Positions 12,988 to 37,008 of a DNA stretch of 37,008 bases are shown piece by piece (the first letter of the stretch is position 1; each line of letters starts with the position of its first letter). Where the stretch lies: assembly GCA_902505605.1 (NCBI GenBank), contig CABWKN010000006.1:1-37008 (forward strand), read 5' to 3'. The translations under genes were made by a program, and so were the position numbers. The stretch comes from Candidatus Guanabacterium sedimentis. Lineage in GTDB: Bacteria; Acidobacteriota; B3-B38; Guanabaribacteriales; B3-B38. Under the pieces are notes generated by a model. The model did no database searches and was not told the DNA's origin. It worked only from the letters and a program-made list of their open reading frames with translations.

Positions 12988-14712
12988 TCATGGTTCCTCC
13001 AGCATGCTGGCGATTTGGCTCATAGTGTATCCATAGCTGCTCATGATGTCTCTCAATATGAGGCTCCTGGGAGTGGAGGATGGGATGTTTAGTTTTCGGC
13101 ACATCTGCTGGTGAGTCAGTCCCACCGCCTCGGCTACCTCTTGTAAGTTCATGCTTCCCCTCAAGGTCATGCCGCTCTTCAACACTATACCCCCTCCTCC
13201 CCTCTGTCTCTGTCCCGTGGCTCTTTTAGGAGCGGGCTGCACTTTCCTATATCTCGGTTTTATTTGCACTTCACCCTCATCACCGCGCAGCATCTGGATA
13301 ATCTGGTTCATACGGTATCCATATTTTTCCATTGTGTCCTTCAGGAGAGATTTTTTAGAGGTAGAAGCTGGGATGCCCAGCCTGAGGCACAACTCTTCAT
13401 GGGTCAGCTCGGCTTTCTCAGCTACCTCTTCCAGGCTCATGCTCCCTCTGATAACTACACCTGCCCTGAGCTCAACCCCACCTTCATACTCTTCCTCTTC
13501 TTCTTGCGGGGTAACCTGTTCTTCGCGGCGCAGCATCTCGACGAGCTGGCTCATGCTGTATCCATACTCCTGCATTATGTCCTTCAGGAGCAATTTTTTA
13601 GAAGAAGAGGCTGGTATTCTTAGCCTGCGGCATAACTCCTGGTGGGTTAGCTCGACTTTCTTGGCCACCTCTTCCAGGCTCATACTCCCTCTGATAACTA
13701 CTCCTTCCCTGAGCTCAACCCCACCCTCGGGCTTTGGCTCTTCTTCCTGAGGAATAGCGTGCAGCACTCTTCCACGCTGCGCTGCCGGGGGTCGCTCCGC
13801 TGACCCTCTGCTGGCGGTGGTCTGCCAGTAGCCGGTCAGCCTGGCCAGACCGATTGCCAGAAAGAAGAAAACCAGCAGCAGAGCGGTATAGCTGCCCAGG
13901 GAATAGTTCCGCCCAAAGGTGGTGGCCAGAAGGGCGCCCTTCTGAGGGCAGGCTTGCTCGCTCTCCAGGCAGGCGATGCATTCGGCTGATTTTAGCCTGT
14001 CAATGTTGGACAGCTTGATGTCTACCGGGCATTTGGTATCGCACAACTCGCAATTGGTACAGCTCTCTGCCACCCTTTTAATGGAGAAAAAGCTGATCTT
14101 ATTCAGCAGACCAAGAACAGCCCCCAGGGGGCAGAAGTAGCGGCACCAGAAGCGACCGATAAACAGCGAGAAGACCAATACTACTCCTAAGATGATATAG
14201 GCTGGCTGCAGATGCCTGGTGATGTTCTTGCCGAAATGAAAAAAGGCGACGAAGGGGTCGTAGTTCTCGAATACCATCCTCCCGGTGATATAGGTGGGTA
14301 TCACTATCAGGAGAACCACCCCATACTTCAGATACCTCATCTTAGCATCCACCACCGGCGGCAAGAGCGACTTTTTCTGCTTGAAGAGCTTGGCTCCCCC
14401 TATCCTTATCCACTCCTGCAGGGAGCCGAAGGGGCAAATCCATCCGCAAAATCCCTTGCCAAACAGCAGGGAGATACCCACCACGGCAATGAGCATCACA
14501 TAGGAGGAGTACTGAACCTTCCACACAAAGGTTCCATGGACCAGGTTGTTATACAGGGACTCTATGGCACCAAAAGGGCAATAGGCATGGACGGTAGCAG
14601 ATGTATCGGCTCCTCCCCTGATAACCAGATGGTTGATAGCAATATAGCTTATGAAAATAAAGAAGATAATCTGTACCAGGTAGCGGACAGGAAACCTCTT
14701 TTTCTTGGCCAT
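12988..14712 (-). CDS. Membrane-bound 4Fe-4S binding protein (NapH/CcoG-like) with three C-terminal helical repeats
   Basis: Multi-TM, 'GKGFCGWICPFGSLQEWI', 'GRFWCRYFCPLGAVLGL', 'CTNCELCDTKCPVDI', 'CIACLESEQACP'. C-terminal ~240 aa contain three copies of a ~65-70 aa module. Confidence 0.9.
   Translation of the reverse strand: MAKKKRFPVRYLVQIIFFIFISYIAINHLVIRGGADTSATVHAYCPFGAIESLYNNLVHGTFVWKVQYSSYVMLIAVVGISLLFGKGFCGWICPFGSLQEWIRIGGAKLFKQKKSLLPPVVDAKMRYLKYGVVLLIVIPTYITGRMVFENYDPFVAFFHFGKNITRHLQPAYIILGVVLVFSLFIGRFWCRYFCPLGAVLGLLNKISFFSIKRVAESCTNCELCDTKCPVDIKLSNIDRLKSAECIACLESEQACPQKGALLATTFGRNYSLGSYTALLLVFFFLAIGLARLTGYWQTTASRGSAERPPAAQRGRVLHAIPQEEEPKPEGGVELREGVVIRGSMSLEEVAKKVELTHQELCRRLRIPASSSKKLLLKDIMQEYGYSMSQLVEMLRREEQVTPQEEEEEYEGGVELRAGVVIRGSMSLEEVAEKAELTHEELCLRLGIPASTSKKSLLKDTMEKYGYRMNQIIQMLRGDEGEVQIKPRYRKVQPAPKRATGQRQRGGGGIVLKSGMTLRGSMNLQEVAEAVGLTHQQMCRKLNIPSSTPRSLILRDIMSSYGYTMSQIASMLEEP
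12991..13730 (-). repeat. Three diverged direct repeats (~200 nt each) encoding the C-terminal module of the polyferredoxin
   Basis: Copies begin GVELREGVVIRGSMSLEEVAKKVELTHQELCRRL..., GVELRAGVVIRGSMSLEEVAEKAELTHEELCLRL..., GIVLKSGMTLRGSMNLQEVAEAVGLTHQQMCRKL... Confidence 0.85.
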
Positions 14713-18836: not shown

Positions 18837-20168
18837 TTAAACTTCCCTCATCTTTTCTTCCAAGGAGAGCATCTCTTCGTCAAACCTATGGGTAAATGTG
18901 GTCAGCCTCTTCAAGTTGGAGGTAGCAAAGCCATTTAGAGCATCTCTCACCACCTCGTCTTCCGATTGATAGATTTCAATAAAGCGGTTGCGCAGGGCGT
19001 AAAACCCTATCTCTCCTACCTCTTTGGTTATAAGGGCATCCACCTCCTCCTGTTCCAGAAAGTGGTTAGCCACTGCCAGACTAGCTCGGAGTTTCTTGTT
19101 TTTGAAAGGGTTAGGCTTGATGGAAAAATCTTCTACCTCCCCTTTCTTTATTCTGGCGAAGGCGAAAAATTTTGCTCTGCCAAAATGTTCGGACAGCCTC
19201 GATTCTAATCCCTTATTCTCCTTAAGGGGCACCATTACCCCAACTGCTCCGCTTTGATAGGGCTCAATTGATATACTGAAAGCCTCTATCTGGGGAAACC
19301 TATCCCTGGCCCTTTTCATTAACTGATGAGAAATCTCATGGCTTCGAGCCACATCAAGTGACTTCCTCATCTGGATTGACGCCTCTCCAAAGAAGAAGGG
19401 ACCCGCCTGCCTGATCTTTACCATTTCCACTCCCTTTACCTCTTTAAAGGAACGGAGAAGAGAACTTATCTCCCTCTCCATATGGGGGTTCATTGAGGCA
19501 TCCATCAGGCTGTAAATTGCTATGCGTCCGTTTTTAAGCCCTACCCACAAAATCAATAAAGCCAAACCCAGAGTGAAAACACCTTCTATATAAGGAATGT
19601 AAAAATAGCTGGCGGATATGGCAATAAAGACCACAAGAGAGGAGAAAATATGTAGCTGAGTGTCCTGGGAATTGGCGATTAGGCTCTGCGAGTTTATTTT
19701 ATCTCCCACCTTCCTCTCCCATCGGGCAAGGATATAAGATACCAGCGCCGATATAGCGGATATTCCCAGGGCGAAGTGAACCACTTTTATCTGCGGAAGC
19801 GTGCTCAGCCTACTTATTCCAGCAAGACCTAATGCAATCCCTCCGTAAAGTATTACCCCGGAGACGAACAGGGTAGCCAGACTCTCCGCCTTATAGTATC
19901 CATAGGGGAACCTCCTGCTCGGTCTGCGGCTGGCTATCCTCAAGCCGAACCAGGAGGCTAAGATAGTAAGCACATCGGAAGCAGAATGAACCGCCTCGGC
20001 CACCAGGGCAATGGAGCCTGAGAGATAACCTATAGCTCCTTTCCCTGCCGCCAGGGCAAGGGTTATCAGGGTGGCAAAGCCAGCCACCTGTTCTCCCTGT
20101 TTCAAATCTACCAAGGTATCGGACAAATGCCCGCCCTCCTTCTTTCCAGAGCAATCATAATCTATCAA
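18837..20168 (-). CDS. Cation diffusion facilitator transporter fused to a C-terminal NifX-like domain
   Basis: CDF region 'GYLSGSIALVAEAVHSASDVLTILASWFGLRIASRRPSRRFPYGYYKAESLATLFVSG'; C-terminal 'VGVMVPLKENKGLESRLSEHFGRAKFFAFARIKKGEV..FSIKPNPF...VDALITKEVGEIGFYALRNRFIEIY'. TTG start abutting the upstream stop codon. Confidence 0.88.
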   Translation of the reverse strand: MIDYDCSGKKEGGHLSDTLVDLKQGEQVAGFATLITLALAAGKGAIGYLSGSIALVAEAVHSASDVLTILASWFGLRIASRRPSRRFPYGYYKAESLATLFVSGVILYGGIALGLAGISRLSTLPQIKVVHFALGISAISALVSYILARWERKVGDKINSQSLIANSQDTQLHIFSSLVVFIAISASYFYIPYIEGVFTLGLALLILWVGLKNGRIAIYSLMDASMNPHMEREISSLLRSFKEVKGVEMVKIRQAGPFFFGEASIQMRKSLDVARSHEISHQLMKRARDRFPQIEAFSISIEPYQSGAVGVMVPLKENKGLESRLSEHFGRAKFFAFARIKKGEVEDFSIKPNPFKNKKLRASLAVANHFLEQEEVDALITKEVGEIGFYALRNRFIEIYQSEDEVVRDALNGFATSNLKRLTTFTHRFDEEMLSLEEKMREV

Positions 20169-20169
20169 T

Positions 20170-21045
20170 TTAGGCTTCCCCGGACTGATTGAGCAATCGG
20201 GTGGTGTTCTGCCATGTCCTTTCTATCTCCTGGGAGACCGCTCCTTGGGAGAACTCTATGACGCTTTTCCGGTGGACCATAGCCTCGGTGACCACAGTGT
20301 CAAAAGGGATTTCCCCCACCAGCTTTAGATTATTTTCCTGACAGTAGCTCCTGATGTTCTGCGAAATCTCCAGATTGATGTCACACTTATTGATGCATAC
20401 CGCGGTGGGTATTTTGAAGTGCGCCGCTAATGCTGCCGTCCGCCTCATATCATGTATTCCTGAAATGGTAGGCTCTGATATAATAAGCACCAGGTCGCTC
20501 CCCGTGATGGAGGAGATAACCGCACAGCCAATTCCCGGGGCACCATCGACAATAATGAGCTCCTTCCCTTTATTCTCAGCCAACATTTTAGCATTTTTCC
20601 TCACCAGGGTCACCAGCTTGCCGGAGTTCTCCTTGGCTACCCCCAATTGGGCGTGAACCAGGGAACCAAATCGGGTCTCCGAGATAAACCACTCACCGGA
20701 GACCTCTTCCTTAAACTCAATGGCTTCAGCAGGGCAGAAGTTATAGCATACCCCACACCCCTCGCAATCTATCTTATCAACCACATATCCTTCACTAATA
20801 GCTCCGAAGCGACAGAGCTCCCGACATTTACCACATTCGGTGCACAGCTCTTTATTAATAAAAGCTAAATTTCCGCTGCGAAACTCCTCGCGCCTGGTTA
20901 TTGTCGGGTCGAGGATAATGTGAAGGTCTGGCGCGTCTACATCAGCATCTGCCATAACTTTATCCTGCGCCAGGGTGGCAAAGGCGGCCACTATGGTAGT
21001 CTTCCCCGTGCCCCCCTTGCCGCTTATTACCACCAGTTCCTTCAT
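20170..21045 (-). CDS. MinD-type P-loop ATPase with inserted 2x[4Fe-4S] ferredoxin domain
   Basis: 'MKELVVISGKGGTGKTTIVAAFA', 'CTECGKCRELCRFGAI', 'CEGCGVCYNFCPAEAI', 'LIIVDGAPGIGCAVISSITG'. Confidence 0.93.
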   Translation of the reverse strand: MKELVVISGKGGTGKTTIVAAFATLAQDKVMADADVDAPDLHIILDPTITRREEFRSGNLAFINKELCTECGKCRELCRFGAISEGYVVDKIDCEGCGVCYNFCPAEAIEFKEEVSGEWFISETRFGSLVHAQLGVAKENSGKLVTLVRKNAKMLAENKGKELIIVDGAPGIGCAVISSITGSDLVLIISEPTISGIHDMRRTAALAAHFKIPTAVCINKCDINLEISQNIRSYCQENNLKLVGEIPFDTVVTEAMVHRKSVIEFSQGAVSQEIERTWQNTTRLLNQSGEA

Positions 21046-21881
21046 TCCCCAATCAACCTCTTTACTTCGCTTATCACCGAACGGAACTTTTCTTTATACT
21101 CCGGATATATATCTACCATCATCTCGCCCCTGGAATAGGCTTCGGCAATCCTCCTCTCCAGAGGTATCCGAAGCAAAACAGGGAGATTTTCCCGCTGACA
21201 AAACTGGTCTACTCCTCTGTCTCCGATGTCCGCTTTGTTGATTATTACTCCCGAGGGAATAGAAAGCGCCTTCACCATATCGACCGCCAGGGTAAGGTCG
21301 TATAGCCCGAAGGGAGTGGGCTCGGTGACCAGGATGACGTAGCCACTCCCCTTAATCGACTCGATCACCGGGCAGGAGGTCCCCGGTGGGGCATCGATAA
21401 TAACGGTTCCTTGGTTATTTGTCTTCTCCTTCACCGCTCGAATCAATGGGGGAGCCATCGGTTCCCCTACATGCAATCTGCCGTGAACGAAATCCACTCC
21501 CCTTACTACTCCTTTCTCCACCGTGCCGATCTCCCGCATCACCTCTGAGATCGCCGCTTCGGGACAGACCAAACTGCAACCCCCGCAGCCGTGGCAAAGC
21601 TCAGGGAAAACGAGGACCTTTTTTTTAACTGCTAATATAGCCCCATACTGGCATATCTCTCCGCACTTGCCACAAAAGGTGCACAGCTTTTCGTCAACCT
21701 GGGGGATGGGTATGCCCACCGACTCCGACCCATGAAACTTCGGCTTGAGGAAGAGGTGGGCATTGGGTTCTTCCACATCGCAATCTAATAGCTGGACTTT
21801 CCCATTGAGCGACAGAGCTAAATTGGTAGCTACAGTGGTCTTTCCTGTGCCTCCCTTGCCGCTGGCTATGCCAACTATCAT
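21042..21881 (-). CDS. MinD-type P-loop ATPase with inserted 2x[4Fe-4S] ferredoxin domain (paralogue)
   Basis: 'MIVGIASGKGGTGKTTVATNLALSL', 'CTFCGKCGEICQYGAI', 'CHGCGGCSLVCPEAAI', 'VIIDAPPGTSCPVIESIKG'. 4-nt ATGA overlap with the next gene. Confidence 0.93.
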   Translation of the reverse strand: MIVGIASGKGGTGKTTVATNLALSLNGKVQLLDCDVEEPNAHLFLKPKFHGSESVGIPIPQVDEKLCTFCGKCGEICQYGAILAVKKKVLVFPELCHGCGGCSLVCPEAAISEVMREIGTVEKGVVRGVDFVHGRLHVGEPMAPPLIRAVKEKTNNQGTVIIDAPPGTSCPVIESIKGSGYVILVTEPTPFGLYDLTLAVDMVKALSIPSGVIINKADIGDRGVDQFCQRENLPVLLRIPLERRIAEAYSRGEMMVDIYPEYKEKFRSVISEVKRLIGE

Positions 21882-29444: not shown

Positions 29445-30638
29445 ATGGGACATAAAGAAATCACTAGAAGGGAGTTTATTGGAAGGACTACTGCGGGCGC
29501 ATTCTCCATCGGACTTGGTATTCCCCTGCTTAAGATGAGCCCGGTCACGCAAGAGCAGCGGGTTAACATTGTGTACCGTACTCTGGGCAGAACCAAGCTG
29601 AGGATTCCCATTGTGAGCTTTGGAGTCATGAACTCCGATAGCCCGGACTTGCTGAGAAAAGCTCTTGATATGGGAATAACGCATTTTGATACCGCCCATG
29701 GCTACCTCAGAGGCAATAGCGAGAGGGTCATAGGTGAGGTGATGCAGGAGACCGGGAGCAGGGATAAAGTGTATATCGGAACAAAGATATTCCTCTCGCG
29801 GGACTCGAGGAAGTTGGTCTATCTCCCCGAAGCCAATGAGGAGAATTTTAACAACATGCTGAATATCAGCCTCCAGCGATTACGCACCGACTATTTAGAC
29901 ATTCTCTACCTCCATCGCGCGGACAGTGTGGAAATGGTGAATTATGAACCCACCATGCGGATATTGGAGAAAGCTAAGGAGTCGGGCAAGGCGAGGTTTA
30001 TCGGCATCTCTTTTCATGGCAATGAGCCGGACATCATCCGTGCCGCTACTGACGCCGGCATCTACGATGTCCTCCTCACCAGATACAACTTCATGCAGGA
30101 ACACAAAGAGGAGCTTAAAAAAGCCATTCAATATGCCGCCGAAAGGGGAGTGGGAGTTGTAGCCATGAAGACTCAGTGTGGGTCGCGGGTGAACCAAAGG
30201 ATGGAAATCGACCACCGGGCGGCGCTGAAATGGGCGCTGAGCGATGAGAATGTATGCACCGCCATCCCTGGAATGACCACCTTTGACCAGATGGACCTCA
30301 ACTTCCAGGTCATGAGCGACCTGGCGCTGTCAGAGGCAGAGAAAAAATCGTTACAGCTTGCTTCTCTGCAGAGGGGGCCCTTCTACTGTCGGGATTGCCG
30401 CACCTGCATCGCCTCTTGCCCCCGCGATGTTGAAATTCCCACCCTTATGAGAGCTTATATGTATGCCGAAGGCTACCGAAACCACATTCAGGCGAGAATG
30501 ACAGTGGCGGAGCTGCCCGACCACTGCGGCTTGAAGGTGTGCCAGAATTGTGCCTCTTGCTCAGCGACCTGCAGGTATGGTATTAATATCAACGAGCGTG
30601 TGAAGATGCTCATTGCGGATGGCTTTTACCGGTGCTGA
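29445..30638 (+). CDS. Aldo/keto reductase with Tat-type signal and C-terminal ferredoxin-like Cys motifs
   Basis: 'TRREFIGRTTAGAFSIGLGIPLL' twin-arginine motif, AKR motifs 'FDTAHGYLRGNSERVIGEVM', 'DILYLHRAD', 'FIGISFHGN'; C-terminal 'CRDCRTCIASCP' and 'CQNCASCSATC'. Confidence 0.9.
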   Translation: MGHKEITRREFIGRTTAGAFSIGLGIPLLKMSPVTQEQRVNIVYRTLGRTKLRIPIVSFGVMNSDSPDLLRKALDMGITHFDTAHGYLRGNSERVIGEVMQETGSRDKVYIGTKIFLSRDSRKLVYLPEANEENFNNMLNISLQRLRTDYLDILYLHRADSVEMVNYEPTMRILEKAKESGKARFIGISFHGNEPDIIRAATDAGIYDVLLTRYNFMQEHKEELKKAIQYAAERGVGVVAMKTQCGSRVNQRMEIDHRAALKWALSDENVCTAIPGMTTFDQMDLNFQVMSDLALSEAEKKSLQLASLQRGPFYCRDCRTCIASCPRDVEIPTLMRAYMYAEGYRNHIQARMTVAELPDHCGLKVCQNCASCSATCRYGININERVKMLIADGFYRC

Positions 30639-30675
30639 AAACAGCATAATTTTACAACAAAAGACAGAGGCACTC

Positions 30676-31743
30676 TTGAAGAGAGAGTTGATACTCCTTT
30701 TCTCAATAGCTCTGGTCATGGGTATTCCCTTGTCGGGAGTGATGGCTTCAGAAGTCAGCCCCACTGGTGAAATAGCCCAGGGCAAGGAAGCCCTGAGAGC
30801 GCTGCTTCCCTCCGAGGAAGAAGTATCCGGCTGGGAGAGCCCTTCTCCTCCCCGATTCTTCGAGCCCGACAATCTGTGGGAATACATCAATGGGCAGGCG
30901 GAGCTGTATCTGGGCTATGGATTTCAGCTGGTGGTAACCTCGGATTACACCTCCCGGGAGGATTCCAGCTCCTTAGTCGTTGACATCTATCTGATGGAAA
31001 GCCCACACCACGCCTTCGGCATCTACGCCGCCGAGAGGACACCCGAGGATAACTTCATTGATGTGGGAGTGCAAGGCTATGTGGGAGGTAATATTCTTAA
31101 CTTCTGGAAGGGACCCTATTATGTGAAGCTCACATCCTTTCAAAGCTCTCCCAGCGCAGAAGAGGTGCTCATCAGGTTCTCCAGAGTAATTGCCGATAAA
31201 ATACCAGGGAGTTATTCCGAGCCTGAGCTTTTCGCCTGCTTCCCCGAAAAGAACAGGGTCAGGATGAGCGAAAGATATATCCCCCAGAACTTCATGGGGC
31301 ACGGATTCCTGAAAAATGGTTATCTGGTGAATTATCATCATGAGGGAATACGGTACCAGGTGTTTTTAGTTGAAAACAGCTCCCCGGAGGAGGCAGAGGA
31401 AGCCTTTGGTAAATATCATAACTTCATCAAAGATGACAGCAAGATTATTTCCCACGAAAAGAAGTCCGATTATCAGAAAATCAGGACAAGAAATAGAAAA
31501 AAGGTGGTCATCTTTCAGTATGGATCTATTATAGGCGGGGTTCTGAACATGGGGGATTTTCCCGAAGCTGACGAGATAATAGAGGAGATACTCACCAAGC
31601 TAAGGGGTCGAAATCTCTCGCAATCAGGAGGTGATAATGACAAAAAGGGTTTTAATCAACAGTCATTCCCGCCGCTCGTCCATCTTACTTACCGTACTTT
31701 TGTTTCTGCTGTTAGCCTTTATGCTGCTGGGGGGGAACGCTAA
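30676..31743 (+). CDS. DUF6599-like secreted protein
   Basis: Signal peptide (TTG start) LKRELILLFSIALVMGIPLSGVMA with AGAGG ribosome-binding site; 'LWEYINGQAELYLGYGFQLVVTSDYTS...VDIYLMESPHHAFGIYAAER'. ORF 30613..31743. Confidence 0.75.
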   Translation: MKRELILLFSIALVMGIPLSGVMASEVSPTGEIAQGKEALRALLPSEEEVSGWESPSPPRFFEPDNLWEYINGQAELYLGYGFQLVVTSDYTSREDSSSLVVDIYLMESPHHAFGIYAAERTPEDNFIDVGVQGYVGGNILNFWKGPYYVKLTSFQSSPSAEEVLIRFSRVIADKIPGSYSEPELFACFPEKNRVRMSERYIPQNFMGHGFLKNGYLVNYHHEGIRYQVFLVENSSPEEAEEAFGKYHNFIKDDSKIISHEKKSDYQKIRTRNRKKVVIFQYGSIIGGVLNMGDFPEADEIIEEILTKLRGRNLSQSGGDNDKKGFNQQSFPPLVHLTYRTFVSAVSLYAAGGER

Positions 31744-32830
31744 CAACCCCAGAATGCTGGCTGCCAGCGGGGTGTATCTTATCTTTCTCACCACCCTGAC
31801 CTACTTACTGTTCCGCACGGGGCGGATTGCCCGCTACCGCTCCATTTTCTTCTCCACATTTGCCATAGGATTTGTCATTACTTTTATTCCCATGATGTTA
31901 GAGACGAGGGGAAACATCGGATTAACTGCCCAGGACATGGCCAATCTCGATGTCCCTCTTTGCCACCTGACCATCCCCATGCTGCTTATTCCCGGGGCTG
32001 TGTATGGAGTTCTCATCTTCCCCACCAGGCTCTTTTCCGAGCTCGGCTTCTTCCCCATGCTTTTCCTCTGGCTGGGAGCGACCATAGTTCTGGGGAAAGG
32101 CTGGTGCAGCTGGGGCTGTTTTTACGGCGGTCTGGACGAGTTTTTCTCCAAACTGTCTCCTAAAAGGAAAATATCATCCAAAAAATTTAATTACACCTTA
32201 CGATTTTTCCCCTTTGCCCTGCTGCTGGTGATAGTTATCTGGGCTTTCCTGGCTCTGTCGCCTGTGTACTGCACCTGGCTCTGCCCTTTTAAAGCGGTGA
32301 CCGAATATGTGAAACCGGTTGACTGGCTGACCTGGCTTCAAACCGGTATATTCATCACCCTATTTCTGGGGCTGGTGGTTGCCCTGCCCCTGCTGATGAA
32401 GAGGAGAGTCCAGTGCGGTCTGTTCTGTCCCATTGGAGCATTTCAATCCCTGGTGGGGCTGGTAAATCCCTACAGGGTTCGCATAGACAGGGAGAAATGC
32501 AACCAGTGCGGAGCCTGCATCAACCAGTGCCCCACCTTCTCCATTACCAAAGAGACACTGGCCAAATACAAGGTTTCCATCACCTGTGCCCGGTGCGGGC
32601 GCTGCATGGAGATTTGCCCCAGAAATGCCATACAATTTTCATTGGTAGGAGTTCCTCTGAAAGCACACGCCACATCCACAAGCGGAAGTCTATTCAAAGA
32701 AGTAATTCGTGCCGACACGCTTTTTGTTTTTGGAGCTTTGCTCTTTGGGGGCATTTTCTCTAACGGTGTAGTGGCTGGCTCTCTGCTGAGAATAATCCAT
32801 CTCATCCAGACAGGCTCTTTTGTTTATTAA
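31637..32830 (+). CDS. Membrane-bound 4Fe-4S binding protein (NapH-like)
   Basis: 'GKGWCSWGCFYGGLDEFF', 'CTWLCPFKAVTEY', 'CGLFCPIGAFQSLVGL', 'CNQCGACINQCPTF', 'CARCGRCMEICPRNAI'. AGGAGG ribosome-binding site before ATG at 31637. Confidence 0.9.
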   Translation: MTKRVLINSHSRRSSILLTVLLFLLLAFMLLGGNANNPRMLAASGVYLIFLTTLTYLLFRTGRIARYRSIFFSTFAIGFVITFIPMMLETRGNIGLTAQDMANLDVPLCHLTIPMLLIPGAVYGVLIFPTRLFSELGFFPMLFLWLGATIVLGKGWCSWGCFYGGLDEFFSKLSPKRKISSKKFNYTLRFFPFALLLVIVIWAFLALSPVYCTWLCPFKAVTEYVKPVDWLTWLQTGIFITLFLGLVVALPLLMKRRVQCGLFCPIGAFQSLVGLVNPYRVRIDREKCNQCGACINQCPTFSITKETLAKYKVSITCARCGRCMEICPRNAIQFSLVGVPLKAHATSTSGSLFKEVIRADTLFVFGALLFGGIFSNGVVAGSLLRIIHLIQTGSFVY

Positions 32831-32842
32831 TAGGAGAAGTTG

Positions 32843-33046
32843 ATGGAAAATAAAAGGAAAATATCGACCAGGATTCGCATCGCAGTGATGTATCTCGTTG
32901 CCATCCTTCTGATTATCCTGATTCCCCTTATCTTTATCTCTTTTGGTTCGGGAATTATAGAAAAAGTCGGCAGAAAGATACCCATCAAAGAGGGAACCTT
33001 TGACCCGGAGACCGGAGGGCTGATATTGGATAAATCCGACCGCTGA
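32843..33046 (+). CDS. Small single-TM protein (67 aa) in the polyferredoxin cluster
   Basis: MENKRKISTRIRIAVMYLVAILLIILIPLIFISFGSGIIEKVGRKIPIKEGTFDPETGGLILDKSDR; AGGAG ribosome-binding site; tightly spaced with neighbours. Confidence 0.75.
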   Translation: MENKRKISTRIRIAVMYLVAILLIILIPLIFISFGSGIIEKVGRKIPIKEGTFDPETGGLILDKSDR

Positions 33047-33051
33047 GCATC

Positions 33052-33672
33052 ATGATGATGGAGCCTGTCATTAAAGCCTTTTTGCTGGGGCTCTCTACCG
33101 GAGCCTTATGTCTGGGCTATTGTTCCCCGGTGTTTGTTCCCCTGATGTTAGCAGAGCAACGGGAGGGTTTCTACGGAAAGCTAATCCCCTTTCTCCAATT
33201 CATGCTGGGGAGACTCATAGCGTATCTGACTTTCGGGCTTGTGGTGGGATGGGCGGGCAGCCAGATGGTGGAACAGGTACCCAGTTTTTTTATCGGCTTG
33301 TCATTTATCGGATTGGCTATTTTTATGTTTCTCTATGGATTAAAAGGAGGGTTCCCCAACCTGCAGCTCTGTCGGGTTATCTCTCCCCTTCTTCGCCGGA
33401 TAAAGATACCCTTTGTCTTTGGTCTGTTTATGGGTTTTAACCTCTGTCCTCCTTTTTTGCTGGCTTTTACCGATGTGTTCGTCTCCGGGGAGATATTTTA
33501 TGGATTGGCTTTCTTCTTGGTGTTTTTTCTGGTAACCTCTGTGTTCCTCTTCCCCCTGATTTTCCTGGGCTATCTCTCTGCGCTCCCTTCGCTGCGCCAG
33601 GTGGCTCAGTTAGCCGCCCTTATCATCAGCGTAATTTATCTTTTCCTCGGGGTAACTCAGCTCCTCTCCTGA
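33052..33672 (+). CDS. SafE/TauE- or CcdA/DsbD-like six-TM membrane protein
   Basis: 'FLLGLSTGALCLGYCSPVFVPLML' and 'FGLFMGFNLCPPFLLAF' pseudo-symmetric Cys/Pro motifs, multi-TM. Confidence 0.78.
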   Translation: MMMEPVIKAFLLGLSTGALCLGYCSPVFVPLMLAEQREGFYGKLIPFLQFMLGRLIAYLTFGLVVGWAGSQMVEQVPSFFIGLSFIGLAIFMFLYGLKGGFPNLQLCRVISPLLRRIKIPFVFGLFMGFNLCPPFLLAFTDVFVSGEIFYGLAFFLVFFLVTSVFLFPLIFLGYLSALPSLRQVAQLAALIISVIYLFLGVTQLLS

Positions 33673-33811: not shown

Positions 33812-35005
33812 TTACTCAACCGTAGTCAGTTTGACCTCTCCCTGAGCGTTTACCGCACCGAAGACTTTGAAGCTGCGGATAAAGGTTCCATTCGCCTTGA
33901 AGAGCTTGACCCAGGAGCTCCCGCCTTCACCATGCGCGCAGATTATCTCATCAATGTCATCGTCATCTATATCAGTAGCGGCTATCTCCACATCACCGTT
34001 GGTGTTACTACCAAAACCGAAGGCTAAGAATTGCTTGATGAGCGTGCCATCCTTTTCAAACAGCCTGACCTTGTTTCCCCCATTATAGCCGGTGGAGGTG
34101 ACGATCTCCAAATCAGCATCGGCATCAAAGTTCCCCACTGCCACATGCACCTCGCCGCCGGGGTTATCAGCGGCCTCAAATGCCTCGAAGGAGCGGATAG
34201 CGGTTCCATCACAGCTGAATATCTTCACCCGCGAGCTGCCGTCATTTCCCATACCAGCTATTATCTCGCAAACCCCATCGGCGTTCTCCAGGTCACCTGC
34301 GGCCACATGGACCTCGCCCTGAGCATTGCCAGCACCAAAAGCTTTGAAATTTCCTATGATGTTGCCATTAGTTTCGAAGAGCTTGATCCACGATTGCCCT
34401 CCATCACCCTGGGCTATGGCTATCTCCATAGAGGTATCAGCATCGAAGTTGCCTATGGCCAGATGGACCTCACCCTGAGCATTTGTAGCACCGAAGGCTT
34501 TGAAAGTGCTGATCTTGGAGCCGCTTACCTCAAAGAACTTGACCCACGATTTTCCTCCCTCGCCGTGTCCAGCGGCAATCTCATCCACATCATCTCCATC
34601 TACATCACCAGCATCCAGCTGTACCTCCCCGCGGGTATTAGCCGCTCCGAATGCTTTAAATGTGCTAATGCCAATCCCGTCGGTAGAAAAAAACTTCACC
34701 CACCCCTTACCATCTAATCCATGACCGCATACAATTCTTAATACAATTCCCTGAAGGGTGTGCACAAAGCCCGCCTTCATGATGTAGTTTGTGCTTGACG
34801 ACTCCCCCACCGGCGAAGGCTGACCAACGGCGTCCGTCACCTGATAATTGGTGGAAGATGAAGCCCCACCGGCATTATCAATCACATCCGAGGTCATCTG
34901 AAAATTGCTGCTGATGGAGAGGGCGAAGACCACCGCCCCCACCAACAAGGGGAGACCGATAAGCAGAAGCATTTTTACCCTTGGTCGTTTTTTTAATAAA
35001 GCCAT
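33812..35005 (-). CDS. Secreted FG-GAP/VCBS-like repeat protein
   Basis: N-terminal TM/signal, 'SSSTNYQVTDAVGQPSPVGESSSTNYIMKAGF' spacer, then six repeats like those in the 82..2403 gene. Confidence 0.85.
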   Translation of the reverse strand: MALLKKRPRVKMLLLIGLPLLVGAVVFALSISSNFQMTSDVIDNAGGASSSTNYQVTDAVGQPSPVGESSSTNYIMKAGFVHTLQGIVLRIVCGHGLDGKGWVKFFSTDGIGISTFKAFGAANTRGEVQLDAGDVDGDDVDEIAAGHGEGGKSWVKFFEVSGSKISTFKAFGATNAQGEVHLAIGNFDADTSMEIAIAQGDGGQSWIKLFETNGNIIGNFKAFGAGNAQGEVHVAAGDLENADGVCEIIAGMGNDGSSRVKIFSCDGTAIRSFEAFEAADNPGGEVHVAVGNFDADADLEIVTSTGYNGGNKVRLFEKDGTLIKQFLAFGFGSNTNGDVEIAATDIDDDDIDEIICAHGEGGSSWVKLFKANGTFIRSFKVFGAVNAQGEVKLTTVE

Positions 35006-35057
35006 GATTTATCTCCTTTCATCCTTATACCATTTTTTATGCCTGCTGACAAGCATT

Positions 35058-37008
35058 TTAATGTTTTTGGTGCTGGGGCTGCTTGACCGTGGCTGCTTTT
35101 GTCTCTACAGGGAGATTGGGTTCTGCGGGTGGCTGTTCAGGCTCGGTGAACTCCTCAAACCTCACCTCCTCATAGCCCCTTCGCTTGGCGACAATGCGGT
35201 AGTCAAAGCTGATATTGGAGGTGCCGTCCCCCTGCTCCCGCACCTCAAAGGAGTCCTTATCCTTGCGCGCAATGTATAATCCCTTCCACTCTCCGATGGG
35301 AGTGAGGAAAACCATGTATCCTGCTTCGGTGTTCGCCGTCTGCAAAAAGACGCTCTCTAACTGCACCACCGCCTGCCCGTTGACCAGTTGAGCCGTGCCG
35401 AAGTCCTCAAACCATATCTCCGGGCTTTCCATGGCATAAAGCAGCACCTTCTTGCCATTATCTATGGGCTGCACGCAGGTCTTAGCACCTCCGACGGTAA
35501 AGTCTCCGGTTACATGAGCATTGCCCACAAAATAGCCAGCATATCCGCTGGAGCTATAAGTTGAACCAAATACCCCATAATTGGTGCCGCTGGTGGCATT
35601 GACAATCCCAAAAACGCCAAAGCCACTGTCGCTATTAGTTGAACCAAATACCCCATAATTGGCCCCGCTGGTGGCAAGGGCCTCACCATGAACGCCATAA
35701 CCACTGGTGCTATCGCTTCTCCCTTGTACTCCATAAGCGGCGCCGGAGGTGGCAACATTAGAACCTTTAACGCCAGCACCGTCGGGGCTGTTGCTAACTG
35801 CAAGTAATCCAAAATTAACTCCACTGGAGGCAGTGGCCTCTGCTAAAACGCCATAGCCGCTGGGGCTATCGCTTCTTGAATGTACGCCAAATACTTTGCC
35901 GCTTGTGCCAGATGCATACGCATAAACACCACTTGCATAGTCGCTGGTGCTCGCGGTTGTACCATATACCCCATAAGTGGTGCCCTCGGTGGCAGTGGCC
36001 TCCCCATAAACGCCCCTACCGCTGGTGCTATCGCTTTTACCATGTACCCCATAAGTGGTGCCGCTGGTGGCAGAGGCATACCCAGAAACGCCAATACGAG
36101 CAGCTATTCCATAAATTCCTCGACCGTCTGGGCTATAAGTTTCGCCATATACACCGTAAGTGGCACCGCTGGTGGCAGTGGACAGGCCATAGACGCCATA
36201 AGTAGGAGCGAGCCCATGAACGCCCCAAGCGCCGGGGCTAACGCCTTCACCCATTACTCCCCAATTGGTGCCAGTGGTAGCAGTGGAAATACCATAAACG
36301 CCGTGCTTAGGACCTGTCCCATAAACGGCATAGCCTTCGGGGCTAGCGCTTATAGCATATACCCCCCAATTGGTGCCGCTGGTGGCAGATGCATACCCAT
36401 AAACGCCACAGCCGCCGGAACTATTGCTTCTACCATATACCCCATAATTTGAGCCGGAGTTGGCAACGGCCCAGCCATAAACGCCATAGCCGCTGGTGCT
36501 CCTGTTTATACCGTATACCCCAAAATTAATTCCGCTGGTGCTCCTGCTATTACCATATACCCCATAATTTATACCGCTAGCGGCAGTGGTCAACCCATAA
36601 ACGCCATAGCCGGTGGGGCTATCGCTTTTACCAAATACCCCATAAGTGAAGCCGCTGGTGGCAGTGGCCAACCCATAAACGCCAAAGCCGCTTGTGTTTG
36701 AAGTTATGCCATATAATGCTTCTAAGTCTGAAGTGTTAATAGTAAGCCTGCCGACCATCATATCACCTACGACATGCACAAATTCATAGGATTCCTTCCC
36801 ATCCAGCAGGTCAGCGTCCAGTCCACTGGTGTTGATCTTGGAGGCAGAGATGTTTGCCCCCGCATTAATATCAGCGTCCACAATGGTGCCATTCACTATC
36901 ATGGCGCTGGTGACGGAATCAGCCTGTCCCTCGTTGACATAGTCCGGGTCGTGATTATGCACCACCGGGGCGAAAGCCGAGGCATCCTCACCATCCCCCC
37001 TATCGGCA
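35058..37008 (-). CDS. Surface/secreted repeat protein with 'YGVYGxSxSxSG' repeats (5' end beyond window)
   Basis: The frame is open to the window edge (ADRGDGEDASAFAPVVHNHDPDYVNEGQADSVTSA...), so the listed GTG start at 36965 is probably not real. C-terminal non-repeat domain 'GAKTCVQPIDNGKKVLLYAMESPEIWFEDFG...'. Confidence 0.85.
   Translation of the reverse strand, partial: ADRGDGEDASAFAPVVHNHDPDYVNEGQADSVTSAMIVNGTIVDADINAGANISASKINTSGLDADLLDGKESYEFVHVVGDMMVGRLTINTSDLEALYGITSNTSGFGVYGLATATSGFTYGVFGKSDSPTGYGVYGLTTAASGINYGVYGNSRSTSGINFGVYGINRSTSGYGVYGWAVANSGSNYGVYGRSNSSGGCGVYGYASATSGTNWGVYAISASPEGYAVYGTGPKHGVYGISTATTGTNWGVMGEGVSPGAWGVHGLAPTYGVYGLSTATSGATYGVYGETYSPDGRGIYGIAARIGVSGYASATSGTTYGVHGKSDSTSGRGVYGEATATEGTTYGVYGTTASTSDYASGVYAYASGTSGKVFGVHSRSDSPSGYGVLAEATASSGVNFGLLAVSNSPDGAGVKGSNVATSGAAYGVQGRSDSTSGYGVHGEALATSGANYGVFGSTNSDSGFGVFGIVNATSGTNYGVFGSTYSSSGYAGYFVGNAHVTGDFTVGGAKTCVQPIDNGKKVLLYAMESPEIWFEDFGTAQLVNGQAVVQLESVFLQTANTEAGYMVFLTPIGEWKGLYIARKDKDSFEVREQGDGTSNISFDYRIVAKRRGYEEVRFEEFTEPEQPPAEPNLPVETKAATVKQPQHQKH
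35530..36700 (-). repeat. ~78-nt coding tandem repeats (26 aa = alternating 12- and 14-aa half-units)
   Basis: Recurring 'ccataaacgccatagccgctggtgctatc...ccatataccccataa' blocks; e.g. copies at ~36398 and ~36476 are 78 nt apart. Confidence 0.85.

Follow-up and report, generated by a model that had tools for sequence, protein, structure and literature searches.

The locus studied here raises the question of how an aldo/keto reductase (AKR) could work on the far side of the cytoplasmic membrane. AKRs are usually regarded as soluble enzymes that draw on NAD(P)H, a donor that an exported AKR does not have. The first-pass annotation of the locus, made from the sequence, proposed that a Tat-targeted AKR with two cysteine clusters instead receives electrons through a membrane polyferredoxin encoded beside it. 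We investigated this proposal using gene calls, profile and structure searches, and neighborhood comparisons. The window, that is, the whole 37,008-nucleotide stretch analyzed, is contig C6 in a draft genome of 2.2 Mb with a completeness of 80.8%.

A five-gene locus under purifying selection

Gene calls and profile matches confirmed the five co-directional open reading frames originally placed within this 4.2 kb (29445–33672; Table 1). Successive genes are separated, in order, by 37 bp, a 107 bp overlap, 12 bp and 5 bp. An identical five-gene order, including the 107 bp overlap, is found in a sister genome from candidate division B38 (L002), whose AKR is 91% identical to that of the window. 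The dN/dS values, in gene order, are 0.18 (AKR), 0.24 (DUF6599), 0.17 (NapH-like), 0.28 (small transmembrane (TM) protein) and 0.11 (DsbD_2), and therefore all five frames are coding, the small TM gene included; the five genes are real and evolve under purifying selection. Scans of the locus for promoters and terminators gave results near chance level.

Table 1. Genes of the locus, with positions counted from the first letter of the window
Feature	Position	Strand	Main match or note
Tat-targeted aldo/keto reductase (AKR) with C-terminal 2x[4Fe-4S] domain, 397 aa	29445..30638	+	PF00248, 1.9e-37
DUF6599 protein with N-terminal signal	30676..31743	+	PF20244, 2.9e-49
NapH-like membrane protein	31637..32830, ATG start	+	TIGR02163, 74 bits; Fer4, 3.6e-11
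67-aa single-TM protein	32843..33046, ATG start	+	no family; conserved beside NapH/DsbD_2
DsbD_2/CcdA-like membrane protein	33052..33672	+	PF13386, 5e-21

Two of the original gene descriptions were refined. The DUF6599-like secreted protein was upheld by its match to PF20244 (167.6 bits against a cut-off of 27); it probably starts at the TTG codon at 30676 and carries a Sec-type signal. The 3' end of its frame, however, had to be corrected: the last ~35 codons overlap the NapH-like gene in another frame (31637–31743), and DUF6599 homologues in other genomes end before this tail. For the last gene, first labeled SafE/CcdA-like, the CcdA-type assignment holds, and DsbD_2 is the better name (76 bits against the PF13386 cut-off of 24.9); cysteines lie in TM1 (CLGYC) and TM4 (NLCPP).

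An apparently exported AKR with Fe-S motifs and an altered cofactor site

The PF00248 profile, the (beta/alpha)8 fold and the catalytic tetrad (D82, Y87, K114, H157, retained in at least 41 of 43 orthologues) assign the first protein to the AKR superfamily. Its AF2 model (pLDDT 86.8) was matched by Foldseek to AKR14A1 (E about 1e-17) and other AKRs, and a profile search of the whole PDB with this protein returned only ordinary AKRs. AKR14A1/YghZ (PDB 4aub, 3n6q), which is among the best structural matches, differs from the window AKR in being cytosolic and NADP-binding and in having no Fe-S domain.

Both features that drew attention to the protein, the twin-arginine signal and the two cysteine clusters, were borne out by conservation. 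Near the N-terminus, in TRREFIG, R8 and R9 are invariant in an alignment of 43 orthologues, as are all eight cysteines of two C-x2-C-x2-C-x3-C motifs (C315/318/321/325 and C366/369/372/376); these have the form of a 2[4Fe-4S] ferredoxin, with Fer4 Pfam matches falling below the cut-off. The twin-arginine precedes a hydrophobic stretch, the signal has no clear cleavage site, and the genome encodes TatC (6e-71), so that the AKR is apparently exported by Tat. Tat substrates fold and take up cofactors before export, and the joint conservation of the arginines and the Fe-S ligands fits cluster loading and folding ahead of translocation. Cytosolic AKR relatives without the twin-arginine carry the same eight cysteines, and therefore export was not what the clusters evolved for.

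The first-pass annotation had also called for modeling of the cofactor site residues, and by conservation analysis the NAD(P) site of the AKR is not intact. We compared 43 exported AKRs with 68–69 canonical AKRs, 15 Fe-S AKRs related to that of L007 (12 of them without the twin-arginine) and three Bacteroidota AKRs. The catalytic tetrad is retained in every group. The beta7 glutamine at column 211 is found in 68/68 canonical and 1/43 exported AKRs; the columns around 211–216 are placed differently by two alignments, and the exported clade lacks the glutamine in both. Column 242, canonically S or E, is K in all 43 exported AKRs, and in the same clade the canonical P at 243 is replaced by T, the L at 244 by Q (35 of 43), the basic residue at 279 by T or N, and the N at 286 mostly by D. 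A methionine at 241 is common to the exported clade and the cytosolic Fe-S AKRs; that change is thus not tied to export. The altered sites span nicotinamide, pyrophosphate and adenine contacts. Judged from the alignment, the exported clade does not keep the residue set expected of an NAD(P)H-dependent AKR, in which the beta7 Gln and the S/N position are conserved together with residues for aromatic stacking and a basic residue for the 2'-phosphate. These changes make ordinary NAD(P)H binding by the exported AKR doubtful.

DUF6599 is a recurrent partner of the AKR

The AlphaFold2 model of the DUF6599 protein (pLDDT 85.6) consists of a duplicated alpha/beta module. A structure search with it gave no match below E 1e-3, and a sequence search of the PDB yielded no relative; the PknH sensor domain, TP0453, TM1622 and RseB, considered as fold relatives, were matched weakly, and we claim no function from the fold.

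Genomic association was more informative. In a sample of 297 genomes of the phylum, 36 encode the AKR (threshold E ≤ 1e-90) and 125 encode DUF6599; in counts that ignore shared ancestry, DUF6599 is present in all 36 genomes with the AKR and in 89 of the 261 others. Twelve of 47 AKR genes in the sample adjoin a DUF6599 gene, against about 0.2 expected by a rough estimate, and these neighbors span five families (f1, f7, f17, f22, f27) and three branches of the AKR tree. Outside the phylum, the two genes are adjacent in a Desulfobacterales MAG (L004), a deltaproteobacterial MAG (L006) and a Thermoplasmatota MAG (L003), whereas in a fourth outside genome, from Aminicenantes (L005), DUF6599 does not lie beside the AKR. 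The AKRs of the outside phyla interleave with that of the window in the tree, which suggests that the AKR-DUF6599 pair has been transferred between phyla as a unit. Conserved linkage, the check originally put forward for this neighborhood, thus holds for these two genes across several families and other phyla.

The membrane proteins form a separate module

The third gene encodes a protein with hydrophobic segments, three CxxxC motifs (159, 214, 262) and two Fer4 motifs (290, 319). It scores 65 and 74 bits against curated NapH models with cut-offs of 234 (NF007013) and 213 (TIGR02163), respectively, and we therefore treat it as NapH-like, not as NapH. It has no NapG part: the NapG-like domain after an internal twin-arginine, which marks dual Sec-Tat polyferredoxins and is present in L144, L246 and P0006, is absent from the window protein (P0003).

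In 10 of the 11 genomes with a DsbD_2 relative (E ≤ 1e-12), the latter is paired with a NapH-like gene, often with a single-TM protein joining the two and usually not next to an AKR; the small TM protein of the window is kept beside NapH/DsbD_2 in L002 and L185. The NapH-like, small TM and DsbD_2 genes are a separate conserved module that joins the AKR only in this genus. We therefore rejected the idea that all five genes form a block conserved outside the genus, given that the trio usually lies apart and the AKR-DUF6599 pair occurs without this NapH-like protein. The linkage initially proposed for all five genes stands in part: the AKR, DUF6599 and a polyferredoxin recur together, but the trio usually stands apart from the AKR. 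In L003–L006, where the AKR is paired with DUF6599 in three genomes and alone in one, a search found no orthologue of the window's NapH-like protein, an empty answer that proves little by itself; a NapH-NapG fusion is encoded elsewhere in three of these four genomes. We also considered copper or cbb3 oxidase assembly of the CcoG-CcoH type for the trio and dismissed it, no CcoG model being among the 25 best NCBIfam matches.

In L200 (6527–9131), a DsbD_2 relative lies beside a membrane-anchored protein that resembles a reductive dehalogenase.

A wider operon with a NapH-NapG fusion and a Tat-exported DUF362 protein

Across the phylum sample, we observed a repeated operon in the order DUF6599, Tat-DUF362, NapH-NapG fusion polyferredoxin. 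In family f27, Tat-DUF362 comes first, followed by a long polyferredoxin and then DUF6599, and in three genomes the AKR gene adjoins them in convergent orientation; this long polyferredoxin is a NapH-NapG fusion with an internal twin-arginine, and the linked polyferredoxins in relatives match NapH at 31–212 and NapG at 344–556. Searching with the f27-type fusion, we found it in 82 of the 297 genomes, including 35 of the 36 that encode the AKR and 47 of the 261 others, again counted regardless of shared ancestry. At 40 NapH-NapG loci, a Tat-type DUF362 gene is adjacent in 37, DUF6599 in 18, and a Tat-AKR lies directly downstream in seven; in those seven, the order DUF6599, DUF362, NapH-NapG, AKR holds wherever the contig is long enough. 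The downstream AKRs carry the twin-arginine and the MKTQ signature of the window AKR type, with a reduced cysteine set.

The window operon has no Tat-exported DUF362 gene; a second operon on contig C91 of the same genome (L246, 2–3423) encodes DUF6599, Tat-DUF362 and a NapH-NapG fusion. The core of the partnership first read from the locus therefore recurs, but the conserved unit is wider and also includes Tat-exported DUF362. For one NapH-NapG polyferredoxin with an internal twin-arginine, Tat dependence has been demonstrated, and its clusters are predicted to face the periplasm (PMC5449189). DUF362 belongs to the same Pfam clan as lactate racemase, which we take as a lead only (PMC11770544).

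At two loci (L204, 1922–7100; L207, 854–6800), another DUF362 subgroup is divergent to DUF6599 and is followed by a twin-arginine-bearing radical-SAM protein (AmmeMemoRadiSam-like) and a spermidine-synthase-like membrane protein.

A parallel case in Bacteroidota

A NapH-NapG fusion also adjoins a Tat-type AKR in Parabacteroides distasonis, Bacteroides finegoldii and a Prevotella MAG. These AKRs carry the two cluster motifs (2[4Fe-4S]) and a lipobox-like cysteine, and their nucleotide motif is preserved more fully (QxxLN, MEPLLGG, EHLQEN); in P. distasonis (L225, 5335–11332) the genes form mirrored duplicates, polyferredoxin-AKR followed by AKR-polyferredoxin. In the tree they fall among cytosolic Fe-S AKRs, far from the window's clade, and therefore AKR export and pairing with a NapH-type relay seem to have arisen twice, independently.

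Proposed mechanism and alternatives

The reading that we consider best, and give somewhat better than an even chance, is that of an extracytoplasmic AKR wired to a membrane polyferredoxin through its Fe-S clusters. Before Tat export, the AKR would fold in the cytosol and take up its two [4Fe-4S] clusters together with any organic cofactor; outside, its C-terminal Fe-S domain would take the place of NapG and exchange single electrons with a membrane polyferredoxin, the NapH-like protein in the window and the NapH-NapG fusion elsewhere. The TIM-barrel active site would thereby be coupled not to free NAD(P)H but to the pool of quinol or ferredoxin. The window AKR might be served by the NapH-like protein, the C91 fusion, or both, with the DsbD_2 and small TM proteins belonging to the window's version of the relay and DUF6599 acting as a secreted partner in substrate binding or docking. 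Fe-S clusters carry one electron, while AKRs move hydride, and therefore a two-electron carrier is needed between them; we identified no flavin or other such carrier at the locus for the AKR step. Gene content, residue conservation, cofactor-site changes and recurrent linkage are observed directly, whereas we infer that the AKR is exported and loaded with Fe-S clusters, that electrons pass between it and the relay, and that it binds a two-electron carrier. The original idea of a polyferredoxin wired to an exported Fe-S AKR is partly supported, and its core is strengthened: none of the three refuting observations named beforehand turned up in these comparisons, the arginines being conserved, linkage recurrent (also, independently, in Bacteroidota) and the NAD(P) site altered. 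The usual location of the window's NapH trio elsewhere weakens it.

The direction of electron flow is a matter of modest preference for outward transfer. AKR reactions run in either direction, and an exported AKR could oxidize an alcohol or a sugar and feed the electrons to the quinone pool by way of its Fe-S clusters and the NapH-type protein. This variant, which differs from the best reading in direction only, would agree with the proposal that NapH-like systems serve oxidases as well as reductases (PMC8238504), and nothing in the sequence fixes the direction; the characterized NapGH, however, runs outward from quinol (PMC5449189), and we judge the inward route unlikely, though worth keeping in view. 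The locus might instead hold two unrelated neighbors, an enzyme unit of AKR and DUF6599 and a membrane thiol or metal redox unit of the NapH-like, TM and DsbD_2 proteins, with no electron path between them. NapH and DsbD_2 do form a stand-alone pair in f7, f17, f26 and f27, and L003, L004 and L006 have the AKR-DUF6599 pair but lack that NapH protein; against this, the genes overlap and are tightly packed in two species, and other families show an independent link of the AKR and DUF6599 to NapH-NapG; mere proximity is, in our estimate, rather improbable.

The main rival keeps the AKR outside and supplies it with a trapped nucleotide. Zymomonas glucose-fructose oxidoreductase (GFOR), an NADP-bound oxidoreductase, is exported by Tat, which sets a precedent. 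A GFOR-like AKR would recycle tightly bound NAD(P) between two substrates as a redox-neutral epimerase, isomerase or oxidoreductase, its Fe-S domain being structural and the polyferredoxin a mere genomic neighbor. Retention of the tetrad in exported AKRs, the fuller nucleotide motif in Bacteroidota and the Fe-S domains of cytosolic relatives are all consistent with such an enzyme; the repeated, independent linkage of AKRs to NapH-NapG polyferredoxins and the eroded nucleotide contacts in the acidobacterial clade argue against it, leaving it with a small share of our confidence. Returning to the wired AKR, we tentatively suggest, with rather less than even confidence, that it represents a new class of extracytoplasmic oxidoreductases, in which an AKR would dispense with diffusible NAD(P)H, be wired by one-electron Fe-S transfer from a NapH-type protein, have DUF6599 and Tat-exported LarA-clan DUF362 proteins as partners, and have arisen at least twice, in the window's phylum, probably Acidobacteriota, and in Bacteroidota.

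Relation to known systems

The proposed relay resembles NapGH and NapH-NapG (Tooke et al. 2017, PMC5449189), where electrons pass from a NapH-type membrane Fe-S protein to an exported one, but the terminal partner there is nitrate reductase and here an AKR; the window has no NapG part, whose role would fall to the 2[4Fe-4S] domain of the AKR itself. NapH-like systems serve many extracytosolic oxidoreductases, and the modular NapH-like relays described by Meheust et al. (2021, PMC8238504) are in this sense similar; they include flavinylated subunits, whereas no FMN-binding domain was seen here, and that study does not list AKRs among the partners ("aldo" is absent from the text). Cytosolic Fe-S AKRs (COG1453-like; L007, L211–L216) share the barrel, the tetrad and the eight cysteines in the same places with the window AKR, but lack the twin-arginine, have QxxxN and MEPLxGG where exported AKRs have L/T and MKTQ, and in the loci examined have neither DUF6599 nor a polyferredoxin as a neighbor. 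CcdA/DsbD_2 thiol carriers (PF13386) have a similar cysteine pair in TM1/TM4-type positions, but pair with thioredoxin, whereas the partners of the window protein are a small TM protein and the NapH-like Fe-S protein.

A literature search on DUF6599 and on AKRs with polyferredoxin or Tat, with most subscription literature outside its coverage, returned nothing relevant. The NapH-type relay itself is known; the literature searched gave no account of an AKR as its terminal enzyme alongside DUF362 and DUF6599. If the proposed wiring is correct, it would provide a route for carbonyl or alcohol chemistry beyond the membrane that does not depend on free NAD(P)H, and would link two families of unknown function, DUF6599 and Tat-DUF362, to a pathway. 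Culturable Bacteroides and Parabacteroides carry the simplest, two-gene version.

Other features of the window

Downstream of the locus, two repeat-rich proteins, one FG-GAP-like and one with a long SGxNYGVYG repeat, are encoded on the minus strand (33812–36965). A 574-aa protein (12988–14712, minus strand) combines a NapH/Fer4_5-type membrane Fe-S domain with three subsequent ~60-aa repeats, an unusual fusion in which the repeats resemble small helix-turn-helix units (EVA..xLTHQELCRRLxIPxS..LLLKDIMxxYGYSMSQL). At 18837–21881 (minus strand), by visual inspection, two adjacent MinD/Mrp-type ATPases with inserted ferredoxin motifs adjoin a cation-diffusion-facilitator protein with a NifX/dinitrogenase-cofactor-like C-terminus.
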